Source of the DNA: a virus
Length of the DNA stretch: 56,082 nucleotides
Reading direction: 5' to 3' (one strand)
Virus record (IMG/VR): IMGVR_UViG_3300030419_000877
Location: 1 to 56,082 of that record
Both the position numbers and the translations under genes were made by a program. Numbering within the stretch: the stretch's first letter is position 1; each line of letters opens with the position of its first letter. Below, one piece after another: positions 5,079 through 33,515 of this stretch. A model generated the notes under the pieces. The model worked only from the letters and a program-made list of their open reading frames with translations, did not search any database and was not told the origin of the DNA.

Positions 5079-7468
5079 TGGCGATACCAAAGCACTTAAC
5101 AGAAAAGAATATACAAAGATTTGCAGGATTTACACCTCAACAGGTGCAAAAGATGTTAGAGTCAAAAGGGATAAGTCCTAACAGTCCTGAAGCTGCTGAA
5201 TACATTGCATCTATGGCGAATAGGGCTGAAGAGATGCTTCAAGCTAGTATGGGGAAAGATAAGTGGCATCAAGGGCAAGGGTTTCAGATGGGCGGTCAAG
5301 TCGGTGGCTTTGACCCTCAGTCCCAGAAACTATTTGACGCTGCAGTTAAAAGAGTTTCTAGCAATCAGCCTCAAACACCTGAGGTACAGAGATACCTTGA
5401 CAACGTGATTGAAACTCGTGGCAGACCTACTATGGTATTCCCTCACACGGCTGACCCACTGCAAAACGCTATGCCTCAACAGGGGTATCAACAGGGAGGT
5501 TTAACTCCACCAACTACTTCACCTCCTCTCCCAACAGGCGATATTGGTATACCACCATTCGGCAACAGAAGAGATCCATTGCCAACACCACCTACCACTA
5601 TACAACCAATAGTAGCAGACGTTAAGTCTAAGCTAAATGAGGCACAAGCACAGCTATCAACAGAGCAAGGTAAAGTTTCAGCCCTACAGCAACAACTAGC
5701 ACAGACACCTATTGAAGACGAAGAGGCTAGAAACAAAATAATTAATCAGATTAACCAATCTGCACCTAAGATAACACAAGCAGAGGCAGCAGTTGCTAAC
5801 GCTTCTCAAGCATTTCAATCATCTGCCATACCTACCGCTGCAGAAGCGGTGGGTTCTACTGTTTCAGCACCTGCAGACATAATTACAAGACAACCTGTAG
5901 ATCAACTAACAGCAACTACAGGACAAACTATTGACCCAACAACAGGGCAATTAACAGGCACTGTGACAGCAGAGGGTACACAGGCACGAACAACTACTGC
6001 TGACGCTCCAACACCAATGGTCTCGACACAAGCAGGTGTAACAACTACCGCACAAGACGTACAAGCTTTCACTCCTCAAGAACGCTTTGGAACAATATCA
6101 CAAAACGCTGTTGTAAATGCACAGCAACAAGCTACAGAAGATCTTAACATTAGAGATGTTTTAGCTTCTCAGGGTACAGGACAACAAATAACATCTCCTG
6201 CTAAAAGAGCATTAAACCAAGGAGAACTTGTCTCAGGGGCAGCCAACGCAGAACAATCCGCACAATTCCTAGAAGGTATTGAGGCAGCCACAGGAGCACC
6301 GTCTTCTGCCGCCACAGTTCAAGGACAACTAACCAACCTTATGTCCCAGTTTGAGGGAGGAGAGCCTCCACCTTGGGCTGCAGGAGCTATGAGACAAGCT
6401 ACGGCAATCATGGCACAACGAGGGTTGGCGGCAAGTTCTATGGCAGGACAAGCTATTGTTCAAGCTGCGATGGAAAGTGCGTTACCAATAGCTTTACAGG
6501 ATGCTCAGACTGTAGCACGATTTGAAGAACAAAACCTTAGTAATAGACAACAACGTGCAATGCTTTCAGCCCAACAGAGAGCACAGTTTCTTGGCATGGA
6601 GTTTGACCAGACGTTTCAGGCACGAGTACAAAACGCATCTAAGATATCTGATATAGCCAACATGAACTTTTCTGCAGAACAGCAGATAGCTCTTGAGAAC
6701 GCACAACTTGCTCAGACAGTAGATTTAGCTAACCTAAGCAACCGCCAAGCCGTGACAATGGCTCAGGCTTCTGCCATAGCTCAAGCTGATATGGCTAATT
6801 TGAGTAATAGACAACAGGCAGCGGTTCAAAATGCACAGAACTTCTTACAGATGGACATGCGTAATCTTGACATATCACAACAGGCAGATATGTTTAAGAA
6901 CCAATCGGTAATACAAAGTCTCTTTACAGACGCTTCAGCACAAAATGCCGCATCACAGTTCAACGCAACAAGTGATAATCAGACCAATCAGTTCTTTGCT
7001 AACCTTAGAAATCAAGTACAGCAGTTTAACTCTGCTCAATCTAACGCTATGAACCAGTTTAATGCTAAGGAAGAGAACGCATTAGAGATCTTTCAAGAGC
7101 AAATAAACAATCAACGTGACCAGTTTAACGCTCAAAACCAACTTGTTATAGCACAGGCTAACGCACAGTGGCGACAGCAACTAGCTACAATAAACAACGC
7201 AGCCCTTAATGAAGCCAACAGGCAGAATGCACTACAGGCAAACAACCTTACACAAAAAGGTCTTGACGAATTGTGGCAAAAAGAGCGTGACCTAATGGCT
7301 TACGCATTTGCTTCTGCAGAAAGTGCAGCAGGTAGACGACAAGAACTTATAACATTAGATATGAAGGGGGAGATATCAGGGGATAACGCATTTGGTTCAG
7401 CTTTGGGTGGCTTTGCAAGTGCTGTGGTTGGTGGTATATTTAGTAACCCTGCATACTTTTTTGGATAG
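5078..7468 (+). CDS. Large Gln/Ala-rich virion protein, probable ejection-type
   Basis: 796 residues. N-terminal region with TPQQVQKML and a Gly/Pro-rich linker (about residues 130-175), then a helical coiled-coil stretch, then a long Gln/Asn/Ala-rich half with recurring LSNRQ units (near residues 486, 551, 575) and many FNA/QFN repeats. The C-terminus is glycine-rich and hydrophobic (LGGFASAVVGGIFSNPAYFFG region). Long helical proteins of this kind following the tail genes are usual for internal virion or ejection proteins of short-tailed phages. No enzymatic motif is seen. Confidence 0.6.
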   Translation: MAIPKHLTEKNIQRFAGFTPQQVQKMLESKGISPNSPEAAEYIASMANRAEEMLQASMGKDKWHQGQGFQMGGQVGGFDPQSQKLFDAAVKRVSSNQPQTPEVQRYLDNVIETRGRPTMVFPHTADPLQNAMPQQGYQQGGLTPPTTSPPLPTGDIGIPPFGNRRDPLPTPPTTIQPIVADVKSKLNEAQAQLSTEQGKVSALQQQLAQTPIEDEEARNKIINQINQSAPKITQAEAAVANASQAFQSSAIPTAAEAVGSTVSAPADIITRQPVDQLTATTGQTIDPTTGQLTGTVTAEGTQARTTTADAPTPMVSTQAGVTTTAQDVQAFTPQERFGTISQNAVVNAQQQATEDLNIRDVLASQGTGQQITSPAKRALNQGELVSGAANAEQSAQFLEGIEAATGAPSSAATVQGQLTNLMSQFEGGEPPPWAAGAMRQATAIMAQRGLAASSMAGQAIVQAAMESALPIALQDAQTVARFEEQNLSNRQQRAMLSAQQRAQFLGMEFDQTFQARVQNASKISDIANMNFSAEQQIALENAQLAQTVDLANLSNRQAVTMAQASAIAQADMANLSNRQQAAVQNAQNFLQMDMRNLDISQQADMFKNQSVIQSLFTDASAQNAASQFNATSDNQTNQFFANLRNQVQQFNSAQSNAMNQFNAKEENALEIFQEQINNQRDQFNAQNQLVIAQANAQWRQQLATINNAALNEANRQNALQANNLTQKGLDELWQKERDLMAYAFASAESAAGRRQELITLDMKGEISGDNAFGSALGGFASAVVGGIFSNPAYFFG

Positions 7469-22645: not shown

Positions 22646-23192
22646 TTATTTTTATCCCACATAATTTCTTTTCCATTTCATCTCTAACTTTATTTATACT
22701 CTCAGTATAAAACCACTCATTATTTCTTTCAAGACAAATCTTCTCTGCTATCTTGTGTGCCATACTTTCCCCTTTATATCTGTTCTTTACAGAAATAGTA
22801 TAGAGTAAGGTATAATCCCTAAACGGACTTGAAGTTTGGTAGCCGTTCAACCTATTCTTTGATTCTACCGCCATACCTATTTTATACCAACTCTTCCAAG
22901 CAGGATTATGTATTATATAAACCTCCCCTACCTTACTCTTGCTAATCCTACTTAAACTATTAGGGAGGCTTGAGAGAACTCTTAACTGCTCCGCAAAGCT
23001 AGTATATCTTCCTGCTTGATGTAATGGATGGTTTTGTGGCACATATTTTCCATTCACATACATTCTATTTGGATTACTACTAATATTATTTTTAGTAGAA
23101 CAATTCTTACACTGTTTTCTATTGACAACTTTCCACGAATCTAGCCAGTTTTCATCTGTAAGTTGCTCACCACAAGTATTACATTTTGACAT
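22638..23192 (-). CDS. GIY-YIG nuclease-like protein with N-terminal zinc ribbon
   Basis: 184 residues. N-terminal Cys pairs (CNTC ... CKNC, residues 4-34) suggest a zinc ribbon. The C-terminal part VGEVYIIHNPAWKSWYKIGM ... RLNGYQTSSPFRDYTLLYTI ... ESMAHKIAEK ... NEWFY is the T5orf172-type GIY-YIG domain. Such free-standing nucleases are often homing endonucleases. It sits between primase and helicase, overlapping both by 8 and 14 bases, so it has adapted to the operon. Target sequence is unknown. Confidence 0.8.
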   Translation of the reverse strand: MSKCNTCGEQLTDENWLDSWKVVNRKQCKNCSTKNNISSNPNRMYVNGKYVPQNHPLHQAGRYTSFAEQLRVLSSLPNSLSRISKSKVGEVYIIHNPAWKSWYKIGMAVESKNRLNGYQTSSPFRDYTLLYTISVKNRYKGESMAHKIAEKICLERNNEWFYTESINKVRDEMEKKLCGIKING

Positions 23193-23952
23193 CTAACATC
23201 TCCCTCAATTTGGTAAAATCTTCTACATTCTTGTACTTTAGATCATCCATGAGCCGTAGAACCTTAACATCTTTTACATAATTTGTCAATTCTTTACTAT
23301 GTTGTAGCGTTTTTTGTAAGGCATCAGGGTCAAGAGCGACCACGACCCTATCAAAATCTGACAAAAGGTATGAATGTTCTGGTAATAGGGACGTTCCTAA
23401 AAGACCAAACCCTGTAACAGGGAAATAGTTAGCGACAGTTATGGCAGATATAACATCTTCCACTACTACAGCAGTCAGAACCTCACTTTGTTTTCTTGTA
23501 ATTGAATAATATGTTGCATTTTTACCATATTTATACCATTTTGGGTGGGTATCCTTGTCTAAAGCTCTCCCTATCGCATCAATCATCTTACCTTTTCTCA
23601 TAATGGGGAACACGACCCTATCGTTTTTAACATCATGGAACATTTTTATGTCAAAAAGACCCCATTTTAAAATAAAATCGTCACAATTATCCAAATCGCT
23701 AGAAAAATACTCTGGCAAGGCAAAGTCAACCTCCTTTTTAGGAATTGTATGCCCATTCATTTTGTGTTTTATGTCCTCAGCAGTTCTGCCAACCTTTTTT
23801 ACACCTCTTACAGTACAACTATTGCGAAAGCAGTTATAAAGTAGCACCCTATCCACCTTAGTGATAGTAAATTTTTTTACACCTTTGCAAACAGGACAAT
23901 CCATTGTCAAAGTTTCGCCATCTTTTATGTCTAAATTATTAAGAAATCTCAT
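23179..23952 (-). CDS. DNA primase (zinc ribbon plus TOPRIM)
   Basis: 257 residues from the ATG at 23952 (AGGAGG is 13 bases upstream); a start 30 bases earlier is possible. The zinc ribbon is C19-C22 and C41-C46 (CPVC ... CFRNSC). The TOPRIM core has VVVED (E near 165) and VVALDPD (D near 208 and 210). It makes RNA primers for the lagging strand. It overlaps the integrase end by 14 bases and the GIY-YIG gene by 14 bases. Confidence 0.88.
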   Translation of the reverse strand: MRFLNNLDIKDGETLTMDCPVCKGVKKFTITKVDRVLLYNCFRNSCTVRGVKKVGRTAEDIKHKMNGHTIPKKEVDFALPEYFSSDLDNCDDFILKWGLFDIKMFHDVKNDRVVFPIMRKGKMIDAIGRALDKDTHPKWYKYGKNATYYSITRKQSEVLTAVVVEDVISAITVANYFPVTGFGLLGTSLLPEHSYLLSDFDRVVVALDPDALQKTLQHSKELTNYVKDVKVLRLMDDLKYKNVEDFTKLREMLDVKM

Positions 23953-24862
23953 TTCGGTATGAATCCCTCCTTGCAAGTGCATTTTGTGATGATTTAAATG
24001 TGTGTTTGATGTATGGACGCATTGATTGAGGCGAATTGTGACCAGATACCGCCATAATCTGCGTAGTATCTACTCCTGCCTCCACCATTTCTGTGATAGC
24101 GGTTCTCCTCATGTCCATAGCGGTAAGTTCTTTGGGTAAACCTGCCTCTTTTTTCACTTCATTAACCAGAATAGACACTTCAAACTCATTATAAGGTCTA
24201 TAACTACCATTTATAGGTCTAACATTAGGCACAACGTACTCTTGAAAGCCAAAATCATCATGTTGTTCTAGTAACATAACTAAAAGATTTGAATTAATAG
24301 GTATATGAACCTCTGCTCTACGTTTTGATTGCACCAAGTTAAGTCTTTTTGTGTCAAAATCAATAGATTTCCACTCAAGTAACCTCATATCGCCTACTCT
24401 TTGAGCAAATTCGTATGCCATGTGGACAATTAACCCAACACTTCGCCATTTGTACTGACTATATGCGGTGTCAAGGAATAATTTTACCTGCTCCCTTGAC
24501 CACATTACCCTCCGCACCTCTTGTTTTGCCTTTTTTACTCGCCTCATAGGGTTACTTGCCAGAAGTTCAAGCTCCTCTGCCATGTTAAACACCACAGATA
24601 AGACAGTAGCGGTGTTGTTTGCCATACGTTTACCCTTTTGTAGCCAAGACTGATAAACAATCTTACAATCACTCACCGATACCTTTGCTATCCGTATGCT
24701 CTCAAACGCTTTAGAAACGCTAACAGGGGTCTGTAAGGCTCTATTGAGCACATACTCGTAGTCCTTCTGTGAACGAGGTCTGAGAGCCAAAAATTGAGGG
24801 CTATGAAGGTAATATGAAACCATATCACCTATTGTTTTTATTTGTTTTGCTTTAGAATACAT
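23939..24862 (-). CDS. int: Tyrosine recombinase/integrase
   Basis: 307 residues. An N-terminal SAM-like DNA-binding half (YVLNRALQTP ... MANNTATVLSVVFNMA) precedes the catalytic domain: Arg in QRVGDMRLLEW, Lys in QSKRRAEV, Arg in MDMRRTAITE, His in AVSGHNSPQSM, and Tyr in PYIKH. The usual His three residues before the second Arg is Met here. It would catalyse site-specific integration or dimer resolution. No attachment site is recognised. It is embedded in the replication operon, co-transcribed with primase. Confidence 0.88.
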   Translation of the reverse strand: MYSKAKQIKTIGDMVSYYLHSPQFLALRPRSQKDYEYVLNRALQTPVSVSKAFESIRIAKVSVSDCKIVYQSWLQKGKRMANNTATVLSVVFNMAEELELLASNPMRRVKKAKQEVRRVMWSREQVKLFLDTAYSQYKWRSVGLIVHMAYEFAQRVGDMRLLEWKSIDFDTKRLNLVQSKRRAEVHIPINSNLLVMLLEQHDDFGFQEYVVPNVRPINGSYRPYNEFEVSILVNEVKKEAGLPKELTAMDMRRTAITEMVEAGVDTTQIMAVSGHNSPQSMRPYIKHTFKSSQNALARRDSYRNEIS

Positions 24863-24920
24863 CTATAACCAACCATGCCATAAATAAAACGGCTAACGAA
24901 TCATAAAAGAATAATTTCAT
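24852..24920 (-). CDS. 22-residue hydrophobic micro-protein
   Basis: It starts MKLFFYDSLAVLFMAWLV and is a single predicted membrane helix. AAGGAA lies upstream of the ATG, and the stop overlaps the integrase start by 11 bases, suggesting coupling. It may be a leader for integrase rather than a functional protein. Confidence 0.45.
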   Translation of the reverse strand: MKLFFYDSLAVLFMAWLVIDVF

Positions 24921-24941
24921 AATATTTCCTTAAAGTAAAGT

Positions 24942-25178
24942 TTATTTTTTAGCTAAAGGTATTTTAACTTCGGATATACGTCCACTAGGTCTTTGTTTCC
25001 ATATTACAAACCGCTTACCCTGACCCTCAAAAGCAATAGCCAACTTATCTTTAGTTATATATTGGGGATTATACTCCCATACATAACCCTCTTTGTAATT
25101 CTGGTATGCCTTATTAATAAATTCTGCGTTGTGCTCTACAAAAAATAAAGCGGTAAATCCTAAAAACATTTCTGTCAT
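24942..25178 (-). CDS. Small hypothetical protein with hydrophobic start
   Basis: 78 residues beginning MTEMFLGFTALFFVEHNAEF; the first 14 are hydrophobic enough for an anchor or signal. The rest is basic (GQGKRFVIWKQRPSGR). It has a GGAGAT ribosome site. No family is recognised. It sits between the integrase and a hydrolase gene cluster. Confidence 0.55.
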   Translation of the reverse strand: MTEMFLGFTALFFVEHNAEFINKAYQNYKEGYVWEYNPQYITKDKLAIAFEGQGKRFVIWKQRPSGRISEVKIPLAKK

Positions 25179-25191
25179 TTTTATCTCCTAT

Positions 25192-25272
25192 TTAAAAAAA
25201 GTATTTTACTGTAACATCTAAAAAGTAGCATAGTGTTACCAATCCAATAAACCATAAAAACTCTTTACTCAT
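25192..25272 (-). CDS. 26-residue single-TM micro-protein
   Basis: It reads MSKEFLWFIGLVTLCYFLDV followed by a short tail; most of it forms one membrane helix. The start overlaps the stop of the SleB-type hydrolase by ATGA. Position next to a lysin could indicate a lysis helper, but nothing else supports this. Confidence 0.5.
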   Translation of the reverse strand: MSKEFLWFIGLVTLCYFLDVTVKYFF

Positions 25273-25697
25273 TTTTCCCACCGATAAAATATGTGGCGGT
25301 CAATCCTTGTGGTACGAGTCTTAGTCTTTCTCCACTCTGGTCTGACATATGTTGCGTGATAATGTGTCGCACCATCTGTAACATCAAGAACAATTCTACC
25401 GCTTAATACAATAGAGGCATATTCTAATGCTTTTGACCACGATTTGCTATTCATGTTTACATCATCTTTTGCACCATCACAATACCAAGAGAATTGGCAT
25501 TTGTGTAGAACAGGTTTGTTTGTACCCTTGTACGTCACCGCTTGTTTCACTACTTCACAAACTGTACTAGGAAATCGTGTGTCCTCTACTCTATTCATCA
25601 CAACTTGACCAACGGCTATTTGTCCTAACATAGATTGGTTATTAGCCTCGTGATAAATATTGACTGCCATACACATAAGTGCGGTTTCTAATATCAT
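25269..25697 (-). CDS. SleB-type cell wall hydrolase (endolysin-like)
   Basis: 142 residues that cover the whole Hydrolase_2/SleB domain: IYHEANNQ (likely catalytic E17), GQIAVGQVVMNRVEDTRFPS, CQFSWYCDG, and DVTDGATHYHATYVRPEW. The family cleaves peptidoglycan glycans, mostly as lytic transglycosylases or amidase-like enzymes. There is no signal peptide. It is in the early leftward block, apart from the M15 endolysin at 35006 that sits with the holin-like genes. Confidence 0.85.
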   Translation of the reverse strand: MILETALMCMAVNIYHEANNQSMLGQIAVGQVVMNRVEDTRFPSTVCEVVKQAVTYKGTNKPVLHKCQFSWYCDGAKDDVNMNSKSWSKALEYASIVLSGRIVLDVTDGATHYHATYVRPEWRKTKTRTTRIDRHIFYRWEK

Positions 25698-25816
25698 TCC
25701 TCTAACTCCTTTTTAATCTTTGTAGGAAGTGATTTGATTTTATCCAATTCAGAATCATCAACCATTTCATCAAAGTAGTCGTCTAGTATTGTTTCAATGT
25801 CCTCTAAGTCGCCCAT
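25694..25816 (-). CDS. 40-residue acidic micro-protein
   Basis: It reads MGDLEDIETILDDYFDEMVD and continues with a helical Lys/Glu end. It overlaps the hydrolase start by 4 bases and the upstream stop by one base (TGATG). The tight chain supports translation. No family is recognised. Confidence 0.5.
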   Translation of the reverse strand: MGDLEDIETILDDYFDEMVDDSELDKIKSLPTKIKKELEE

Positions 25817-25914
25817 CACGATATCCTCATAAAAAAACCAGAACACGCATTAAGTATAACTGTTCCAACTATAAGTATAGACATCATTACAAATAAACTT
25901 TGTCCCTCATTCAT
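25816..25914 (-). CDS. 32-residue membrane micro-protein
   Basis: It reads MNEGQSLFVMMSILIVGTVI then LNACSGFF and a short end. One membrane helix is followed by LNAC, a weak lipobox-like site (Asn at -2 is unusual). The stop overlaps the next start as TGATG. Its role is unknown. Confidence 0.5.
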   Translation of the reverse strand: MNEGQSLFVMMSILIVGTVILNACSGFFMRIS

Positions 25915-25918
25915 ATTA

Positions 25919-26170
25919 TTACTCCATTATAAAATCTGGTTCGTTTTCTTCATTGTATTTTTGCAAAGCCTCATTAAAATTTAAGGCATCAAAATGTGAT
26001 AACTCTACTACTTCGCCAGTATTCCATTTATCAGCTTCAACTTGAGCCAATGCCCTCGTGGGAAATGTCTTAACTGGACTATTTACTGTCCAAGAACCCT
26101 CACCCTCTTTGACGTACTCTAACCCATCAACCTCAAAGGGTTCAAATACTACTGCATAATATTTATTCAT
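25919..26170 (-). CDS. Small hypothetical protein (83 aa)
   Basis: It begins MNKYYAVVFEPFEVDGLEYV; acidic, soluble, with a central WTVNSPVKTFPTRALAQVEADKW that is likely alpha/beta. The pattern recalls short phage proteins with a TR..A...A..W motif, but no named family is claimed. The start overlaps the upstream stop by ATGA. Confidence 0.55.
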   Translation of the reverse strand: MNKYYAVVFEPFEVDGLEYVKEGEGSWTVNSPVKTFPTRALAQVEADKWNTGEVVELSHFDALNFNEALQKYNEENEPDFIME

Positions 26171-26259
26171 TCTTCTTCTCCCTCTTCTAGGTTACTCCAA
26201 TACTCTATCCAATCGCCTTGTTGGTCTTTGGTTAAATCATTCCATTCTTCTTCACTCAT
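26167..26259 (-). CDS. 30-residue acidic micro-protein
   Basis: It reads MSEEEWNDLTKDQQGDWIEY then WSNLEEGEEE. AAAGGAG precedes the start, and both ends overlap neighbours (8 bases and ATGA). It resembles no family I know; support is from coupling and the ribosome site. Confidence 0.5.
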   Translation of the reverse strand: MSEEEWNDLTKDQQGDWIEYWSNLEEGEEE

Positions 26260-26497
26260 TCTTTTTCTCCTTTGGTAAATTCTCTTTAAGACAATAATCA
26301 CTATACCACCCACCTTTGTGAGGTTGTTCAAACTCTAGTATGTTTGCTAGTCTAAACATAAGAGTTTCTATCTCACAAATGTGCTCATAGTAGATAGGTA
26401 TTTTCTCTGATGTGTTACAGTTAAACTCTCTCAATACGTTAACATATTTGAGTAGTTCTACTCTGTCTTTTGGTTCTATTGTTATTACTTTACGCAT
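26252..26497 (-). CDS. Small hypothetical protein (81 aa)
   Basis: Helical, with two to three cysteines and a central YEHICEIETLMFRLANILEF stretch. AGGAG lies upstream of the ATG. It overlaps the next gene by 8 bases at each end. Function unknown. Confidence 0.5.
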   Translation of the reverse strand: MRKVITIEPKDRVELLKYVNVLREFNCNTSEKIPIYYEHICEIETLMFRLANILEFEQPHKGGWYSDYCLKENLPKEKKNE

Positions 26498-26699: not shown

Positions 26700-27881
26700 C
26701 TACTCTACTCCTTTTAAAATGTGAGATATAACATCAACTGTAAAACCATTTCCAAGCATCTTATATCTCTGTGAATTACTAATGGGTTTTACATCATACC
26801 ACCCATCACTAACATGGTCTTCGTAGGTGTGCTTATCTGGAAAGACACCTTGCTCTGTGTACCCATCTGGAACAGTTTGCAACCTCTCACATTCAAGAGG
26901 TGTTAAGGCTCTCCAGAAAAACTCCTCTGGATTTACATTCTCCCAATTACGCACCACTACGTTATCTTTCTGTACTGTAGACAAGGTATTAGTCTTGTCG
27001 TCTGTCCTCAACTCAATGCGAGGTTTTAGTTTTAAATCTGGATTATAGTCATCTCTCTTGCCAGTTTTGGGGTTAATCTTTCGATTAATGATACGACCAC
27101 ATTCAACTTTAGGCTCTCTGTGTCCACCTTGCATGGTTGTAAGTGATGGTGCTTTACCATATCTGCTATAAACTCTGCGAATGATATCATAGCCTTTGAT
27201 GTCAGCTTCACCTACTTGTCTACAACCAAACTTACCCTCGTCATCATATACTATCTGTCGTCTAGCTTTTTCGTAGTACATTTTCATGCTACCACCCTTG
27301 AAATAATTAGCATCTATGCAGTAAGACTTATCTCTGTCTGCTATAGCACCATCTTCAAGTATATCATTCATAATGATTCCCTTATCTGGCATTAAGTCAA
27401 AGTCAATGTTTGTCCAATACAATCGCTTACGAGATTGAGCAGACATTACTGAACTGTTTATCTCGTGGCATACTACGTCTGGGAATATGCTCTGAAACAT
27501 CTCAGTAAAATAATCTTTCCAAACCTTTGGCATAGATGCAACATTCTCAATAAGAATCTTATCTACGTCTAATCCTTTGAGAGCATCAAGTAATACTTTT
27601 GACATATCTCTTGGGTCTTGTTGAAACTTCTGCAACCCTGCAACTGAATAACTCTGGCAAGGAAATCCTGCAACCAAGAGGTCAATCTTCTTTCCCTTTA
27701 ACACTTCCCAATTTCGTGCATCACCATGTCGGATAATACTTGGATAGTTGTACCGACTAACTGCACTTGAATAAGGGTCAATCTCAAAGGCATGGTATTC
27801 TTCTGGTGTGATACCTAGCTTGTCTAGTGAAAGCATTGTACCAGAAAATCCATCAAAAAAACTTGCTACTGTTTTATACAT
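26700..27881 (-). CDS. DNA cytosine-5 methyltransferase
   Basis: 393 residues. AdoMet motif I is SFFDGFSGTMLSL; the catalytic motif IV is GFPCQSYSVAG (C75); motif VI ENV is at 112-114; motif VIII is QSRKRLYWTN near 149; motifs IX-X are RLQTVPDGYT and KMLGNGFTVDVI. The region 165-310 is the target-recognition part. It methylates cytosine at C5, probably to protect phage DNA from restriction. No matching restriction gene is nearby. It overlaps the small upstream gene by 8 bases. Confidence 0.92.
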   Translation of the reverse strand: MYKTVASFFDGFSGTMLSLDKLGITPEEYHAFEIDPYSSAVSRYNYPSIIRHGDARNWEVLKGKKIDLLVAGFPCQSYSVAGLQKFQQDPRDMSKVLLDALKGLDVDKILIENVASMPKVWKDYFTEMFQSIFPDVVCHEINSSVMSAQSRKRLYWTNIDFDLMPDKGIIMNDILEDGAIADRDKSYCIDANYFKGGSMKMYYEKARRQIVYDDEGKFGCRQVGEADIKGYDIIRRVYSRYGKAPSLTTMQGGHREPKVECGRIINRKINPKTGKRDDYNPDLKLKPRIELRTDDKTNTLSTVQKDNVVVRNWENVNPEEFFWRALTPLECERLQTVPDGYTEQGVFPDKHTYEDHVSDGWYDVKPISNSQRYKMLGNGFTVDVISHILKGVE

Positions 27882-30538: not shown

Positions 30539-30569
30539 GATTTTACTCCTATTAAAATGTCTATAATTA

Positions 30570-30599
30570 GTTTTACCCTACTTTAAATGATTCGGTCAA
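30570..30599 (-). promoter_or_regulatory. Leftward sigma70-like promoter
   Basis: On the minus strand, TTGACC (30594-30599) is followed after 18 bases by TAAAAC (30570-30575). The -35 box fits the consensus in 5 of 6 bases, the -10 in 4. A TGATTCG half-site at 30588-30594 matches the arms of the inverted repeat at 30590s' counterpart, 32590-32613. It would drive the long operon that starts with 30158-30538. Confidence 0.5.
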
Positions 30600-30614
30600 G
30601 TTTTATTTCTCGAA

Positions 30615-30632
30615 CCCTACCCTACCCTATCC
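30615..30632 (-). other. G-rich tract with G-quadruplex potential
   Basis: The minus strand reads GGATAGGGTAGGGTAGGG: three GGG runs and one GG run with loops of 2-3 bases. It lies just upstream of the leftward promoter. It could fold into a two-tetrad quadruplex. Folding is predicted, not shown. Confidence 0.4.
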
Positions 30633-30661
30633 TATGATAGTAAATCTTTCATAATTTTTTC

Positions 30662-30702
30662 AAAAGAAAAAAGTGGCGAGTCTTGGTGGTTATCGACTCG
30701 CC
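30662..30702 (-). terminator. Rho-independent terminator, leftward
   Basis: An 8-bp perfect stem GGCGAGTC/GACTCGCC (30675-30682 and 30695-30702) with a 12-base loop is followed on the minus strand by ACTTTTTTCTTTT. It follows the stop of the gene ending at 30725, so it separates this first early unit from the next leftward promoter. Confidence 0.75.
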
Positions 30703-30724
30703 TAGTTAGGAGGAAACGACTCAA

Positions 30725-31432
30725 CTATCTTTTAATCTTTTCAACTATAATATTATTATCTTGTTTGTCTGAGTGTTTATAACATCTCAAACAATCTTTG
30801 CATTGTTGACCGCTACAATTTTGAATCTCTTTGAAATTTTCACCATTTACATTATTAAAAACTTTATCAAAATTTTTGGGAATCTTGGTTATAACTTTAT
30901 CGACTCTAGTATTAGAAAAAACAATAATAAGATTTTTTGGTTTATCTCTCTTATCAAAAAACTTTTTTATAATGTCACTGCGTTTTGTCCATAAAGCAAA
31001 ATTACAATGCGGATTATATTCCGCTATCCTACAGTAATTTTCTATCATGTTATATTTAGGAAATCTTTTAATAATGACTCCGTTGTCGTCAACAATTTCT
31101 GTTAATAATTCCCCATGATGATTAAACCTAAAAAAAGCTTGTAGAAAATAAAATTGCTTTATTTCGTTATCATCAAGAATCTTTTCCGCTAATATTTCGT
31201 TTTTATCTAATGATAGCGGTAAGTTTTTCATATAAGAATTTATTGATGAATGGGAGTAACAGACTCCGCATACGTCAACAATTTTTCCCGCCAATTCGTT
31301 TTTCTTTTTTCCCTCTAAAAATTTTTGATAACAGAATCCGTTTTTCTTGGTATTGTTTCCGATTGCATTAAAATCTTTTAACTTGCCACGCAACTTAGAA
31401 ACATGACCTAGTTGAGTATTATCTAAAGGCAT
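30725..31432 (-). CDS. Cys-rich Gp88-like phage protein
   Basis: 235 residues. Features include FCYQKF, DVCGVCYSH, FFRFNHHGELL, FALWTKRSDIIKKF, NLIIVFSNTRV and a C-terminal CSGQQCKDCLRC. The order, with early Cys, an H.GEL/GD element, a WT+R element and a final Cys cluster, resembles the Gp88/DUF7227 type of phage proteins. These are of unknown function; the Cys cluster may bind iron-sulfur or zinc. It belongs to the first leftward unit and is rich in GAGTC/GACTC sites. Confidence 0.5.
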   Translation of the reverse strand: MPLDNTQLGHVSKLRGKLKDFNAIGNNTKKNGFCYQKFLEGKKKNELAGKIVDVCGVCYSHSSINSYMKNLPLSLDKNEILAEKILDDNEIKQFYFLQAFFRFNHHGELLTEIVDDNGVIIKRFPKYNMIENYCRIAEYNPHCNFALWTKRSDIIKKFFDKRDKPKNLIIVFSNTRVDKVITKIPKNFDKVFNNVNGENFKEIQNCSGQQCKDCLRCYKHSDKQDNNIIVEKIKR

Positions 31433-31433
31433 T

Positions 31434-31643
31434 TTATATTCTCCTTAATGTAATTGTAATATAGATTAAACCTAAACCGCCTAAACCATAATGAAACAAT
31501 GCGGTATAAAAAAAGAATAAATCAATATTACTATTTCCGAAATCTGAAATAAAAGTTGAAGACATCATGTTAATATAAATGTTTCCTATTATAAACATCA
31601 TAAAACAAGCTAACATCTGAAATATTTTACCTAGTACAATCAT
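31434..31643 (-). CDS. Small membrane protein with two TM segments
   Basis: 69 residues from the ATG at 31643, which has GGAGG 9 bases upstream. Two hydrophobic stretches (about residues 5-25 and 45-66) flank a short polar loop. It could be a superinfection-exclusion protein, holin or anchor; nothing decides. It lies one base before the Gp88-like gene. Confidence 0.55.
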   Translation of the reverse strand: MIVLGKIFQMLACFMMFIIGNIYINMMSSTFISDFGNSNIDLFFFYTALFHYGLGGLGLIYITITLRRI

Positions 31644-31666
31644 TTTTGAATCCTCCAATTTTATAG

Positions 31667-31695
31667 GCGGAGTCTAGCATTAAACCAGACTCCGC
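31667..31695. repeat. 9-bp stem hairpin between early genes
   Basis: GCGGAGTCT (31667-31675) pairs perfectly with AGACTCCGC (31687-31695) around an 11-base loop. A U tract is absent, so it is either a weak terminator or a processing/regulatory hairpin. Both arms carry a CGGAGTC motif that recurs nearby. Confidence 0.6.
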
Positions 31696-31705
31696 TTGTT
31701 TAAAT

Positions 31706-32062
31706 TTATTGTTGAGTAATAACAGTTGTTATTCTCTTACCATTCGTCAACTTGCGTTGTTTCTGTACTAAATAATCATAAGTACGAGTCCCACCATTTC
31801 TGGAATAATTCGCATAGTAATTGACTCGGTTTCCAATTCTCACAACTAGAAAGCCCTCTTTGGATTTACCGCCACTTGTAAGATAAATTGCGTTATCTTG
31901 AGTCTTGTCATTAATGCGGACTCTGTATGGTTGCACGTTGTTTAACTCTAAAAGGTCAAAAACAAATTTTGCCATTTCTTGACTATCGCTAGTAAAATCA
32001 AACATTTTAATAGCGGTTTTGATTTGCTTGTTGTGGATTGCGTTTATATCTAAATTTTGCAT
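31706..32062 (-). CDS. Hypothetical early protein (118 aa)
   Basis: Start at the ATG 32062, with GGAGG 7 bases upstream; an earlier start at 32104 lacks a site. It begins MQNLDINAIHNKQIKTAIKM, then an alpha/beta core (PYRVRINDKT; AIYLTSGGKSKEGFLVVRIG) and a basic end (VQKQRKLTNGKRITTV). It may bind nucleic acid but no family is recognised. Confidence 0.55.
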   Translation of the reverse strand: MQNLDINAIHNKQIKTAIKMFDFTSDSQEMAKFVFDLLELNNVQPYRVRINDKTQDNAIYLTSGGKSKEGFLVVRIGNRVNYYANYSRNGGTRTYDYLVQKQRKLTNGKRITTVITQQ

Positions 32063-32111
32063 GTTTACCTCCAATGGTTTATATGCGGTTATTGTTAAAC
32101 TCAAATACTAA

Positions 32112-32567
32112 TTATTTACCAATTCGTCGATTAAAGTCATTAATAGCGGTTTCTAAGTCAAGGTCATAATGACCATTAGAAAATGATATTCCCTCCTCAT
32201 TCTCAGAAAAAAAGATAGTGAAATAAGCTTTATCTGAAAAAGTAGGATTATTAAATTTTCCTAGAATAAAACCGAGTCCGTTTTGTTCGAGTGGCGTTTT
32301 GCCTTTTTCGATAATTAAAGCGGTTTTTCCTCCAATTATAACAGTAGAAGAGTCAAGCGGAGTCACAGTCTGAATTTCAGAATCAATATCAACCATAGTG
32401 ACATTATGCTTTTCTACTAAATCAGATTTTAATTCAGGATTGTTATTGATATACCTTTGAATAGCTAACTTTCGTAATTCAAGATTTTCAATTAAATCCG
32501 AATTGAAATTTCCGTCAATCGTTGCGTGTGAAATTGCGTTGTTTATTTGTGTGTTATTTATAACCAT
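32112..32567 (-). CDS. Hypothetical early protein, first leftward gene (151 aa)
   Basis: It begins MVINNTQINNAISHATIDGN and has a beta-rich C-terminal half (GKTALIIEKGKTPLEQNGLG; KAYFTIFFSENEEGISF). It is the first gene leftward of the control region, so it should be the first expressed in that direction. AAGGAAACGTAAAAA lies upstream of the ATG. No helix-turn-helix is visible, and I do not recognise it as a repressor. Confidence 0.55.
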   Translation of the reverse strand: MVINNTQINNAISHATIDGNFNSDLIENLELRKLAIQRYINNNPELKSDLVEKHNVTMVDIDSEIQTVTPLDSSTVIIGGKTALIIEKGKTPLEQNGLGFILGKFNNPTFSDKAYFTIFFSENEEGISFSNGHYDLDLETAINDFNRRIGK

Positions 32568-32589
32568 TTTTTACGTTTCCTTGTTTTGA

Positions 32590-32613
32590 TGATTCGCCAA
32601 AATCAACGAATCA
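32590..32613. repeat. Inverted repeat TGATTCG, possible operator
   Basis: TGATTCG (32590-32596) and CGAATCA (32607-32613) are perfect 7-bp arms separated by 10 bases. It lies in the leader of the first leftward gene. A single TGATTCG also overlaps the next leftward promoter at 30588-30594, so a shared regulator is possible. Confidence 0.5.
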
Positions 32614-32632
32614 ATATTGAATTAATAAGATT

Positions 32633-32652
32633 ATGACTCAGAATGACTCAGA
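32633..32652. repeat. Tandem 10-bp direct repeat ATGACTCAGA
   Basis: Two perfect adjacent copies of ATGACTCAGA (32633-32642 and 32643-32652), upstream of the leftward gene at 32567. One helical turn apart, they could be a protein-binding pair. Each holds a GACTC (GANTC) site. Confidence 0.6.
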
Positions 32653-33017
32653 AATAAAGTTTTTTATAAATTATTTTTTATAGGACTAAACATCATTAAT
32701 TTTTTTAATAGGTATATTCGGAGTCGATAGTGTCCGCTTGTAGATATTTTTAGAGTCTGCAACGGAGTCGGGGTGATACCGCTTTTTATGGCCATATTTC
32801 AGACTCAACGAATAACTAAACAGTTTATAAACGTATATAAATCAATAATTTATACTTATATTCCTACCGCTTTTTAAAAATATTATTCCCAAAATACACA
32901 CGCTATTTTTTCACACCGCACCGCCTACCGCTGCCTACGCAACGTGATAGTGCGTGGGACACCCCCCCATCTATGGTATATATATATGTACAAATACACA
33001 GAAGTGGTTTTTTTGAC

Positions 33018-33046
33018 TTGACAGGAGGTGAAAAACATGGTATAAC
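33018..33046 (+). promoter_or_regulatory. Strong rightward sigma70-type promoter
   Basis: TTGACA (33018-33023), a 17-base spacer and TATAAC (33041-33046): a consensus -35 and a 5/6 -10. The -10 runs into TATAACTAA, as at the capsid promoter near 47052. It drives the rightward block starting with the gene at 33234. The spacer contains AGGAGGTGA, an odd feature noted separately. Confidence 0.75.
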
Positions 33047-33176
33047 TAAGTTAAGACTTCTTAGTTGAAACATAAAGTTATAACATATATAATATATACA
33101 TTAATATAGTTAAGACTATATGTTATAACTATCTATATTATATACATAAATATAGTTAAAACTATATGTTAAGACT
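33040..33176 (+). repeat. Array of GTTAWRACT-like motifs (iteron- or operator-like)
   Basis: GTTAWRACT-type motifs occur at 33050 (GTTAAGACT), 33077 (GTTATAAC), 33109 (GTTAAGACT), 33122 (GTTATAACT), 33155 (GTTAAAACT) and 33168 (GTTAAGACT), with a degenerate GTATAACT at 33040. The pair at 33109/33122 is repeated 46 bases on at 33155/33168, inside a 45-46 base tandem repeat (33077-33121 and 33122-33167). Inverted arms ATATAGT...ACTATAT also occur in each unit. Binding by an initiator or repressor is inferred. Confidence 0.7.
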
Positions 33177-33233
33177 CTCTCTTTATATATACTCATATTA
33201 ATTATTCCTTCCTACCTAAATTAACTATTGACA

Positions 33234-33515
33234 ATGCGTAAAAATAAAGTAAAACTATATTCATCTGATAATGTTATCGAAGAGTTCTACGAAGCTATCA
33301 GTGAAAACAACCCAAATAAGGCTCAAAGACTTCATATTCCTAAATCAGATGTCTTCTATATCCGTCAAGCCATCTATGAAAAAACTGGAAACCTTTACAC
33401 CCTAGACCACGTAGAACGTGCCTTGTTTTTGGAAGGATACCTAAATAGAGGGGAAGTCCTAGACCCTGATAGACCTAGAGGTTACTGCTCATATGACACC
33501 AGAGATGCTAGATAG
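33234..33515 (+). CDS. Small hypothetical protein, first rightward gene (93 aa)
   Basis: Start at the ATG 33234 rather than a TTG 6 bases upstream. It begins MRKNKVKLYSSDNVIEEFYE and includes KSDVFYIRQAIYEKTGNLYT ... DHVERALFLEGYL, a helical pattern common in small late-region proteins of marine phages. First gene behind the strong promoter, so likely well expressed. A regulator role is possible but not shown. Confidence 0.6.
   Translation: MRKNKVKLYSSDNVIEEFYEAISENNPNKAQRLHIPKSDVFYIRQAIYEKTGNLYTLDHVERALFLEGYLNRGEVLDPDRPRGYCSYDTRDAR

Follow-up and report, generated by a model that had tools for sequence, protein, structure and literature searches.

Phage identity and organization of the early leftward unit

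The window analyzed here (the whole 56,082 bp stretch of IMG/VR record IMGVR_UViG_3300030419_000877) is the genome of an HMO-2011-type podovirus. Its terminase, portal and DNA polymerase are 73-76%, 69-73% and 59-62% identical, respectively, to those of HMO-2011 and the phages CRP-2, CRP-603 and CRP-207, and its DNA polymerase carries the DnaJ-like insert found in HMO-2011-type phages. The HMO-2011-type gene order is conserved, with a tyrosine integrase gene (23939-24862) ahead of the helicase and polymerase genes; an integrase upstream of the replication genes is a feature of subgroup I of these phages (PMC9038755). The hosts of the cultured relatives are marine alphaproteobacteria belonging to the Rhodobacteraceae, SAR116 and SAR11 (HMO-2011 is a Puniceispirillum phage and the CRP phages infect Roseobacter). 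When GTDB genomes were searched for the host of the window, the anchor gene used below had no match, and the terminase matched one Paracoccaceae record and MAG contigs that for the most part looked unrelated; neither a prophage nor a host contig was found. No GcrA match was obtained in this Paracoccaceae record, which may be incomplete.

Two gene arms diverge from the intergenic region at 32807-33227, which lies at the GC-skew minimum and contains a sigma-70-like rightward promoter and AT-rich 46-bp repeats. Specifically, two of these repeats, which share 87% of their sequence and contain inverted repeats of the TATAACATATA type, are arranged in tandem at 33085-33176, beside the skew minimum. 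A strongly conserved non-coding block at 32940-33060 (CTCCTGTCAAGTC...CCACTTCTGTGTATTTG...ATGGGGGGGTGTCCCACGCACTATCAC, including a G7 run) is kept in the related phage records L018-L020 and is a possible promoter or origin element. The first rightward gene (33228-33515, plus strand, 95 aa) is conserved and served as the anchor for syntenic comparison of relatives. No leftward sigma-70-like promoter was scored between 32432 and 33505, despite the eight GANTC sites of the leader described below.

The segment of interest is the start of the leftward arm, with the replication genes further on. The deposited records of the cultured relatives begin with the equivalent of this arm. The gene order points to the leftward unit as presumably the earliest to be expressed. 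Ahead of its first gene is a leader (32568-32806, minus strand). The genes that follow, all on the minus strand, encode a 151-aa protein that was not assigned to a family and has homologues only in L018-L020 (32112-32567), a small basic protein listed as 132 aa, or 118 aa if started from the ATG at 32062 (31706-32104), a probable small membrane protein of 74 aa (31434-31658) and a Gp88-like protein (30725-31432; PF17338, E-value: 4e-4, below the Pfam cut-off). A hairpin with perfect arms, GGCGGAGTCT...AGACTCCGCT, occupies the intergenic space at 31667-31695, and a second hairpin, GGCGAGTC...GACTCGCC, is found at 30675-30702.

A local array of GANTC sites

The initial annotation had counted 21 GAGTC/GACTC sites at 30675-32816, and a recount gave exactly this number; the total for GANTC in the same interval is 29. 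The full array extends over 30589-32806 and consists of 30 sites, namely a GATTC at 30589 and 29 sites at 30678-32802, or approximately 13 per kb where two to three would be expected. Under a first-order (dinucleotide) model of the 2.4-kb segment 30561-32960, 1.7 GAGTC/GACTC sites are expected against the 21 observed (p = 2.6e-16), which bears out the local enrichment. In the remaining 53.7 kb of the genome there are 31 such sites versus 80 expected, indicating that the phage avoids the word elsewhere. Following a scan of the genome, no other 2.4-kb window was found to have an equally enriched 5-mer, and a similar density does not recur elsewhere in the early block.

Seven copies of CGGAGTC had also been reported. 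Seven of the eight copies in the genome do lie inside 31076-32769, but the enriched word proper is GANTC, with CGGAGTC forming part of this broader excess. Both hairpins carry two sites each (CGGAGTC sites in the case of the intergenic hairpin; the other is located at the distal end of the array), and sites are also present in the tandem pair at 32635/32645, as had been described. These elements hold only six of the 21 GAGTC/GACTC sites, however, so repeats and hairpins were rejected as the cause of the excess. The densest run is in the leader, with eight GANTC in approximately 240 bp (32591, 32608, 32635, 32645, 32721, 32753, 32765 and 32802). The four leader sites at 32721-32802 are retained in L018, and those at 32765 and 32802 are also retained in L019 and L020. 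The L018 leader additionally contains a tandem repeat (unit AGTCGAAATAAATAGTCTTCATGC) approximately 550-700 bp left of position 7001 that is not present in the window. Within the genes, four sites each fall in those for the 151-aa and small basic proteins, one in that for the 74-aa protein and seven in the Gp88-like gene, while the divergent intergenic region is almost free of the word (one site, at 33173).

A second word, GCGG(T)/AGCGG, is strongly enriched at 30560-32960 and 22800-26400, with 24 GCGG in the segment versus 4.5 expected. This excess is common to L018-L020 and runs through the leftward arm. A Chi-like or uptake-like role was rejected: GCGG counts are equal on both strands of the segment, so the word is not polar, and the enrichment is wider in the leftward block.

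GANTC content of the early zone in related phages

The zone at 400-2800 bp of the leftward arm, located by using the homologue of the first rightward gene as the anchor, was compared among 30 phages from which near copies had been removed. In the window, this zone (measured left of 33228) has 30 GANTC versus 7.7 expected (3.9-fold). The 30 phages fall into three classes by ratio of observed to expected GANTC: ten at 0-0.18 (nine of them with zero sites), ten at 0.26-1.22 and ten at 3.68-4.68, although phages within a class share ancestry, so that these are not ten independent events each (the array label requires at least two to four changes on the tree). No phage falls between 1.22 and 3.68, and in the rightward arm of the same phages GANTC is at 0.25-1.15 of expectation throughout. 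The enriched ten are the clade of the window and two near clades. In the tree, the window groups with L018-L020 (support 100/98), and the sister group (joined at 94/91) is made up of zero-class phages and one low one. The close relatives thus share the enrichment, while more distant sisters show the opposite extreme. Along the arm of the array phages, there are approximately 12 sites per kb at 400-2800 bp and approximately 2 per kb by 4.2 kb. Few sites are found in the first 400 bp, and the array therefore begins beyond the divergent promoter region. The array class is so far known from metagenome contigs of one phage group only; no isolates belonging to it were found.

Phage-specific words of other kinds were also seen in early arms. 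The early zone of L037 (3 kb left of position 7001) has 13 copies of GACGGA/TCCGTC versus 0.9 expected, and L022 and L045 similarly have ACAGG/CCTGT and AGGCC, respectively.

Among cultured isolates, GANTC is missing from the initial 3.9-6.5 kb of the arm in CRP-207, CRP-603, CRP-2, CRP-345 and CRP-13, which have 1-2 per kb downstream, and CRP-1 has a single site in the first 5.3 kb. The longest GANTC-free run begins at the early end in these five phages and in the unrelated CRP-5. CRP-5 and SIO1, which belong to another family (Zobellviridae), likewise have GANTC-poor early ends. The majority of the examined roseophage isolates, which represent two families, lack GANTC in the early zone. The early ends of CRP-9, CRP-3, CRP-212 and HMO-2011 are not cleanly empty, and that of the SAR11 phage HTVC033P has a roughly average GANTC content. 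HTVC019P (L117) has almost no GANTC in its genome (six in 42 kb, four of them in one kb at 36-37 kb), in agreement with the genome-wide depletion described for some pelagiphages (PMC9516812).

Specificity of the word and evidence for selection

Pooled over the array class, GANTC occurs at 3.9 times expectation, compared to 0.57 for GATC, 0.18 for GANNTC and 0.56-0.90 for one-base variants. The pooled zero set, which comprises 16 zones chosen for being near zero, has one GANTC versus approximately 127 expected, while one-base variants (0.70-1.12) and GATC (1.16) are close to expectation. Of all 16 palindromic XYNYX motifs, it is GANTC that deviates furthest from expectation in either class. Such exactness together with a free central base is the specificity of CcrM, which has been characterized as highly selective (PMC10359602). 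The association with CcrM sites proposed in the initial annotation is strongly supported on three grounds: the exactness of the word, its concentration in the first leftward unit and its special status in relatives with alphaproteobacterial hosts. In the pooled enriched phages, GAGTC/GACTC is at 8.2 times expectation and GAATC/GATTC at 2.1 times, a fourfold difference for which CcrM itself provides no explanation. Beyond the five bases there is only a mild preference for G at -1, and a longer GcrA-type consensus was rejected on this basis.

The possibility that the excess is a compositional accident, or reflects the codon habits of a horizontally acquired module as had been suggested earlier, is negligible: although the segment has a lower GC content than the genome (31% versus 38%), counts exceed both dinucleotide and synonymous-codon expectations, the sites are intergenic as well as genic, in all codon phases and on both strands, and homologues in sister phages lack them. 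Of the window sites, 14 lie outside long ORFs and 16 inside, and in nine array phages GANTC is denser between genes (14.4 per kb) than within them (9.7 per kb). The four window genes contain 16 sites, compared to 6.2 expected from synonymous shuffling, a count that was not reached in any of the 2000 shuffles, and the Gp88-like gene alone has its seven versus 1.1. Eight control genes further along the arm have 14 versus 22. Between homologous Gp88-type genes with 77% protein identity, the array phage L019 has seven sites and the zero phage L022 has none. Similarly, another Gp88-like gene has nine sites in L018 and none in L027 and L089.

The Gp88 gene itself was rejected as the carrier of the sites: of 37 dereplicated Gp88 loci, only the two belonging to the clade of the window (L137 and L138) are enriched and the other 35, from other phages, show no excess. 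An RNA-level element was rejected as well, since the word is near strand-balanced in the enriched phages and no Rfam family was matched.

In pairwise alignments of array zones that are 77-91% identical, GANTC is kept in 390 of 496 site comparisons (79%), compared to 34-71% for control motifs and 36-68% expected from identity alone (the pairwise comparisons overlap). Conservation of the central base of the sites is only slightly lower than that of the fixed bases, and gives no sign that this base drifts freely. In a strongly diverged Gp88 pair (56% DNA identity), one of eight individual sites is shared, and over long times site density seems more constant than position. Strong selection connected with the CcrM methylation mark seems to act on this early stretch, and selection on CcrM sites is our best reading of the array and zero pattern.

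Methylase and GcrA genes

The sole methylase encoded in the window is a C5-cytosine methylase (26700-27881). No N6-adenine methyltransferase (PF01555) was found in 18 phage records, including the window and other array phages, and no GcrA gene was found in the window or other array phages. A phage-encoded CcrM or GcrA system was therefore rejected, and any reader of the array would have to be a host protein or some unrecognised protein. In a separate record, L016 (G017:C1:25294-25461, minus strand), an 81-aa ORF with a GcrA domain (E-value: 3.8e-16) was identified on a 51.6-kb phage contig that also has a Gp88-like gene; GcrA homologues have been reported in ϕCbK-like phages (PMC3556154).

Proposed role of the array and alternative explanations

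GcrA binds methylated GANTC, occupying more DNA where the methylation is on both strands, and interacts with RNA polymerase (PMC3667746). As GcrA both reads the methylated word and associates with RNA polymerase, an array of this kind would make early transcription methylation-dependent. We put it at about an even chance that the array is readable through its methylation and ties early expression to the CcrM/GcrA state of the host. According to this model, the dense, selected array of CcrM sites, which spans the leader and the initial genes of the leftward unit, would make methylation state readable: freshly replicated or injected phage DNA would be un- or hemi-methylated, while phage DNA resident in a CcrM-expressing cell would become fully methylated. 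A reader, most likely host GcrA (a methyl-GANTC-dependent sigma-70 cofactor) or CcrM itself, might then alter early transcription across the unit, either activating or silencing it. In zero-class phages, the equivalent unit would have been made invisible to the CcrM/GcrA system. GANTC methylation is reported for Pelagibacter (PMC9516812), and MucR is able to shield GANTC from CcrM (PMC5172544). Against a GcrA reading, promoters are where GcrA is known to exert control, but the array extends over coding DNA and leaves out the divergent promoter region. A more specific version, which we regard as possible but tentative, is that the array acts as an epigenetic memory in which its approximately 30 sites would distinguish fresh from resident DNA and switch the unit via GcrA or a phage reader, with sister phages having erased their sites to escape.

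A more doubtful explanation is that the sites are operators for a phage DNA-binding protein, most simply the product of the gene at 31706-32104, which would coat the unit and autoregulate or silence it independently of methylation, comparable to the repressors that act on the numerous stoperators of mycobacteriophage L5. This gene sits inside the array and its product, a candidate array reader, has a basic tail. Of the 12 array phages that were examined, 11 have a member of its family, as against none of the 18 other phages; zero and intermediate phages all lack it, and both HMM and profile searches recovered it from array phages alone. The array phages have a common ancestry at this locus, however, which makes the association partly one of inheritance, and L047 has an array with no detectable homologue. 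A protein reader would suit the bias towards GAGTC rather than GATTC and the G favoured ahead of the site. Conversely, it is uncommon for a repressor to combine exactness with a free central base, the structural model of the protein is of low confidence (pLDDT 59) with no significant fold match, and phage operators leave unexplained why sister phages and roseophages have eliminated GANTC.

Restriction upon entry is an unlikely explanation. Here the early arm would enter first, and zero-class phages would avoid GANTC in it so that anti-restriction genes precede the sites, with the array serving as bait or consisting of protected sites in restriction-free hosts. It is consistent with the absence of sites from zero-class phages being limited to the early end (1-2 sites per kb are found in later DNA), and with the partitioning of pelagiphages by genome-wide GANTC depletion (PMC9516812). 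A restriction enzyme would also cut the later sites, however, and SAR11 genomes are reported to have no known restriction systems (PMC9516812). Furthermore, avoidance provides no cause for a fourfold excess: the zone of the window is enriched 3.9-fold, and it is the sister phages that are depleted in it.

Slightly less probable still is that the array forms part of a replication origin fired by CcrM methylation, in the manner of the GATC clusters at enterobacterial oriC. The AT-rich segment lies beside the GC-skew minimum and the AT-rich repeats at 33085-33176, but gene direction confounds the skew minimum, GANTC is nearly missing from the stretch that most resembles an origin (32807-33227), and the array extends for 2.4 kb through coding genes.

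Comparison with known systems

The open-access literature that was searched did not yield any description of a phage with a local GANTC array. The use of host orphan methyltransferase sites to read methylation is known from Dam-site clusters at oriC (with SeqA) and at the phage P1 pac site. These involve a different enzyme and word, and the clusters, located at an origin or a site of packaging, measure tens to hundreds of bp, whereas the array described here covers 2.4 kb of early genes. The stoperators of mycobacteriophage L5 are asymmetric 13-bp repressor sites that are distributed genome-wide in one orientation, some of them in genes. The array resembles them in comprising many short sites, some intragenic, but its word is a 5-bp palindrome that is confined to one zone and found on both strands.

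The array bears on the reasons for the differing GANTC contents of phages of alphaproteobacteria, and on whether such phages are subject to the CcrM/GcrA cell-cycle circuit or escape it. Close relatives within an abundant marine group hold both extremes in the same 2.4 kb, with homologous genes at seven versus zero sites. The array also points to a candidate reader protein (31706-32104), and zero-class isolates such as CRP-603 and CRP-345 exist. The GcrA/CcrM promoters of Caulobacter (PMC3667746) are similar in having GANTC in a transcription control region and methylation that GcrA can read; they have one or few sites near the -10/-35 elements, in contrast to approximately 30 sites through the genes of a phage unit. 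The GANTC depletion of pelagiphages (Seong et al. 2022, PMC9516812), as presented in portions of that report in which local enrichment is not mentioned, also concerns clade-wise GANTC differences in marine alphaproteobacterial phages and involves the same motif and presumed host enzyme. That depletion, as described there, is genome-wide and splits the pelagiphages, whereas in the phages compared here a single early zone is packed with or emptied of GANTC in close relatives, with normal depletion elsewhere.
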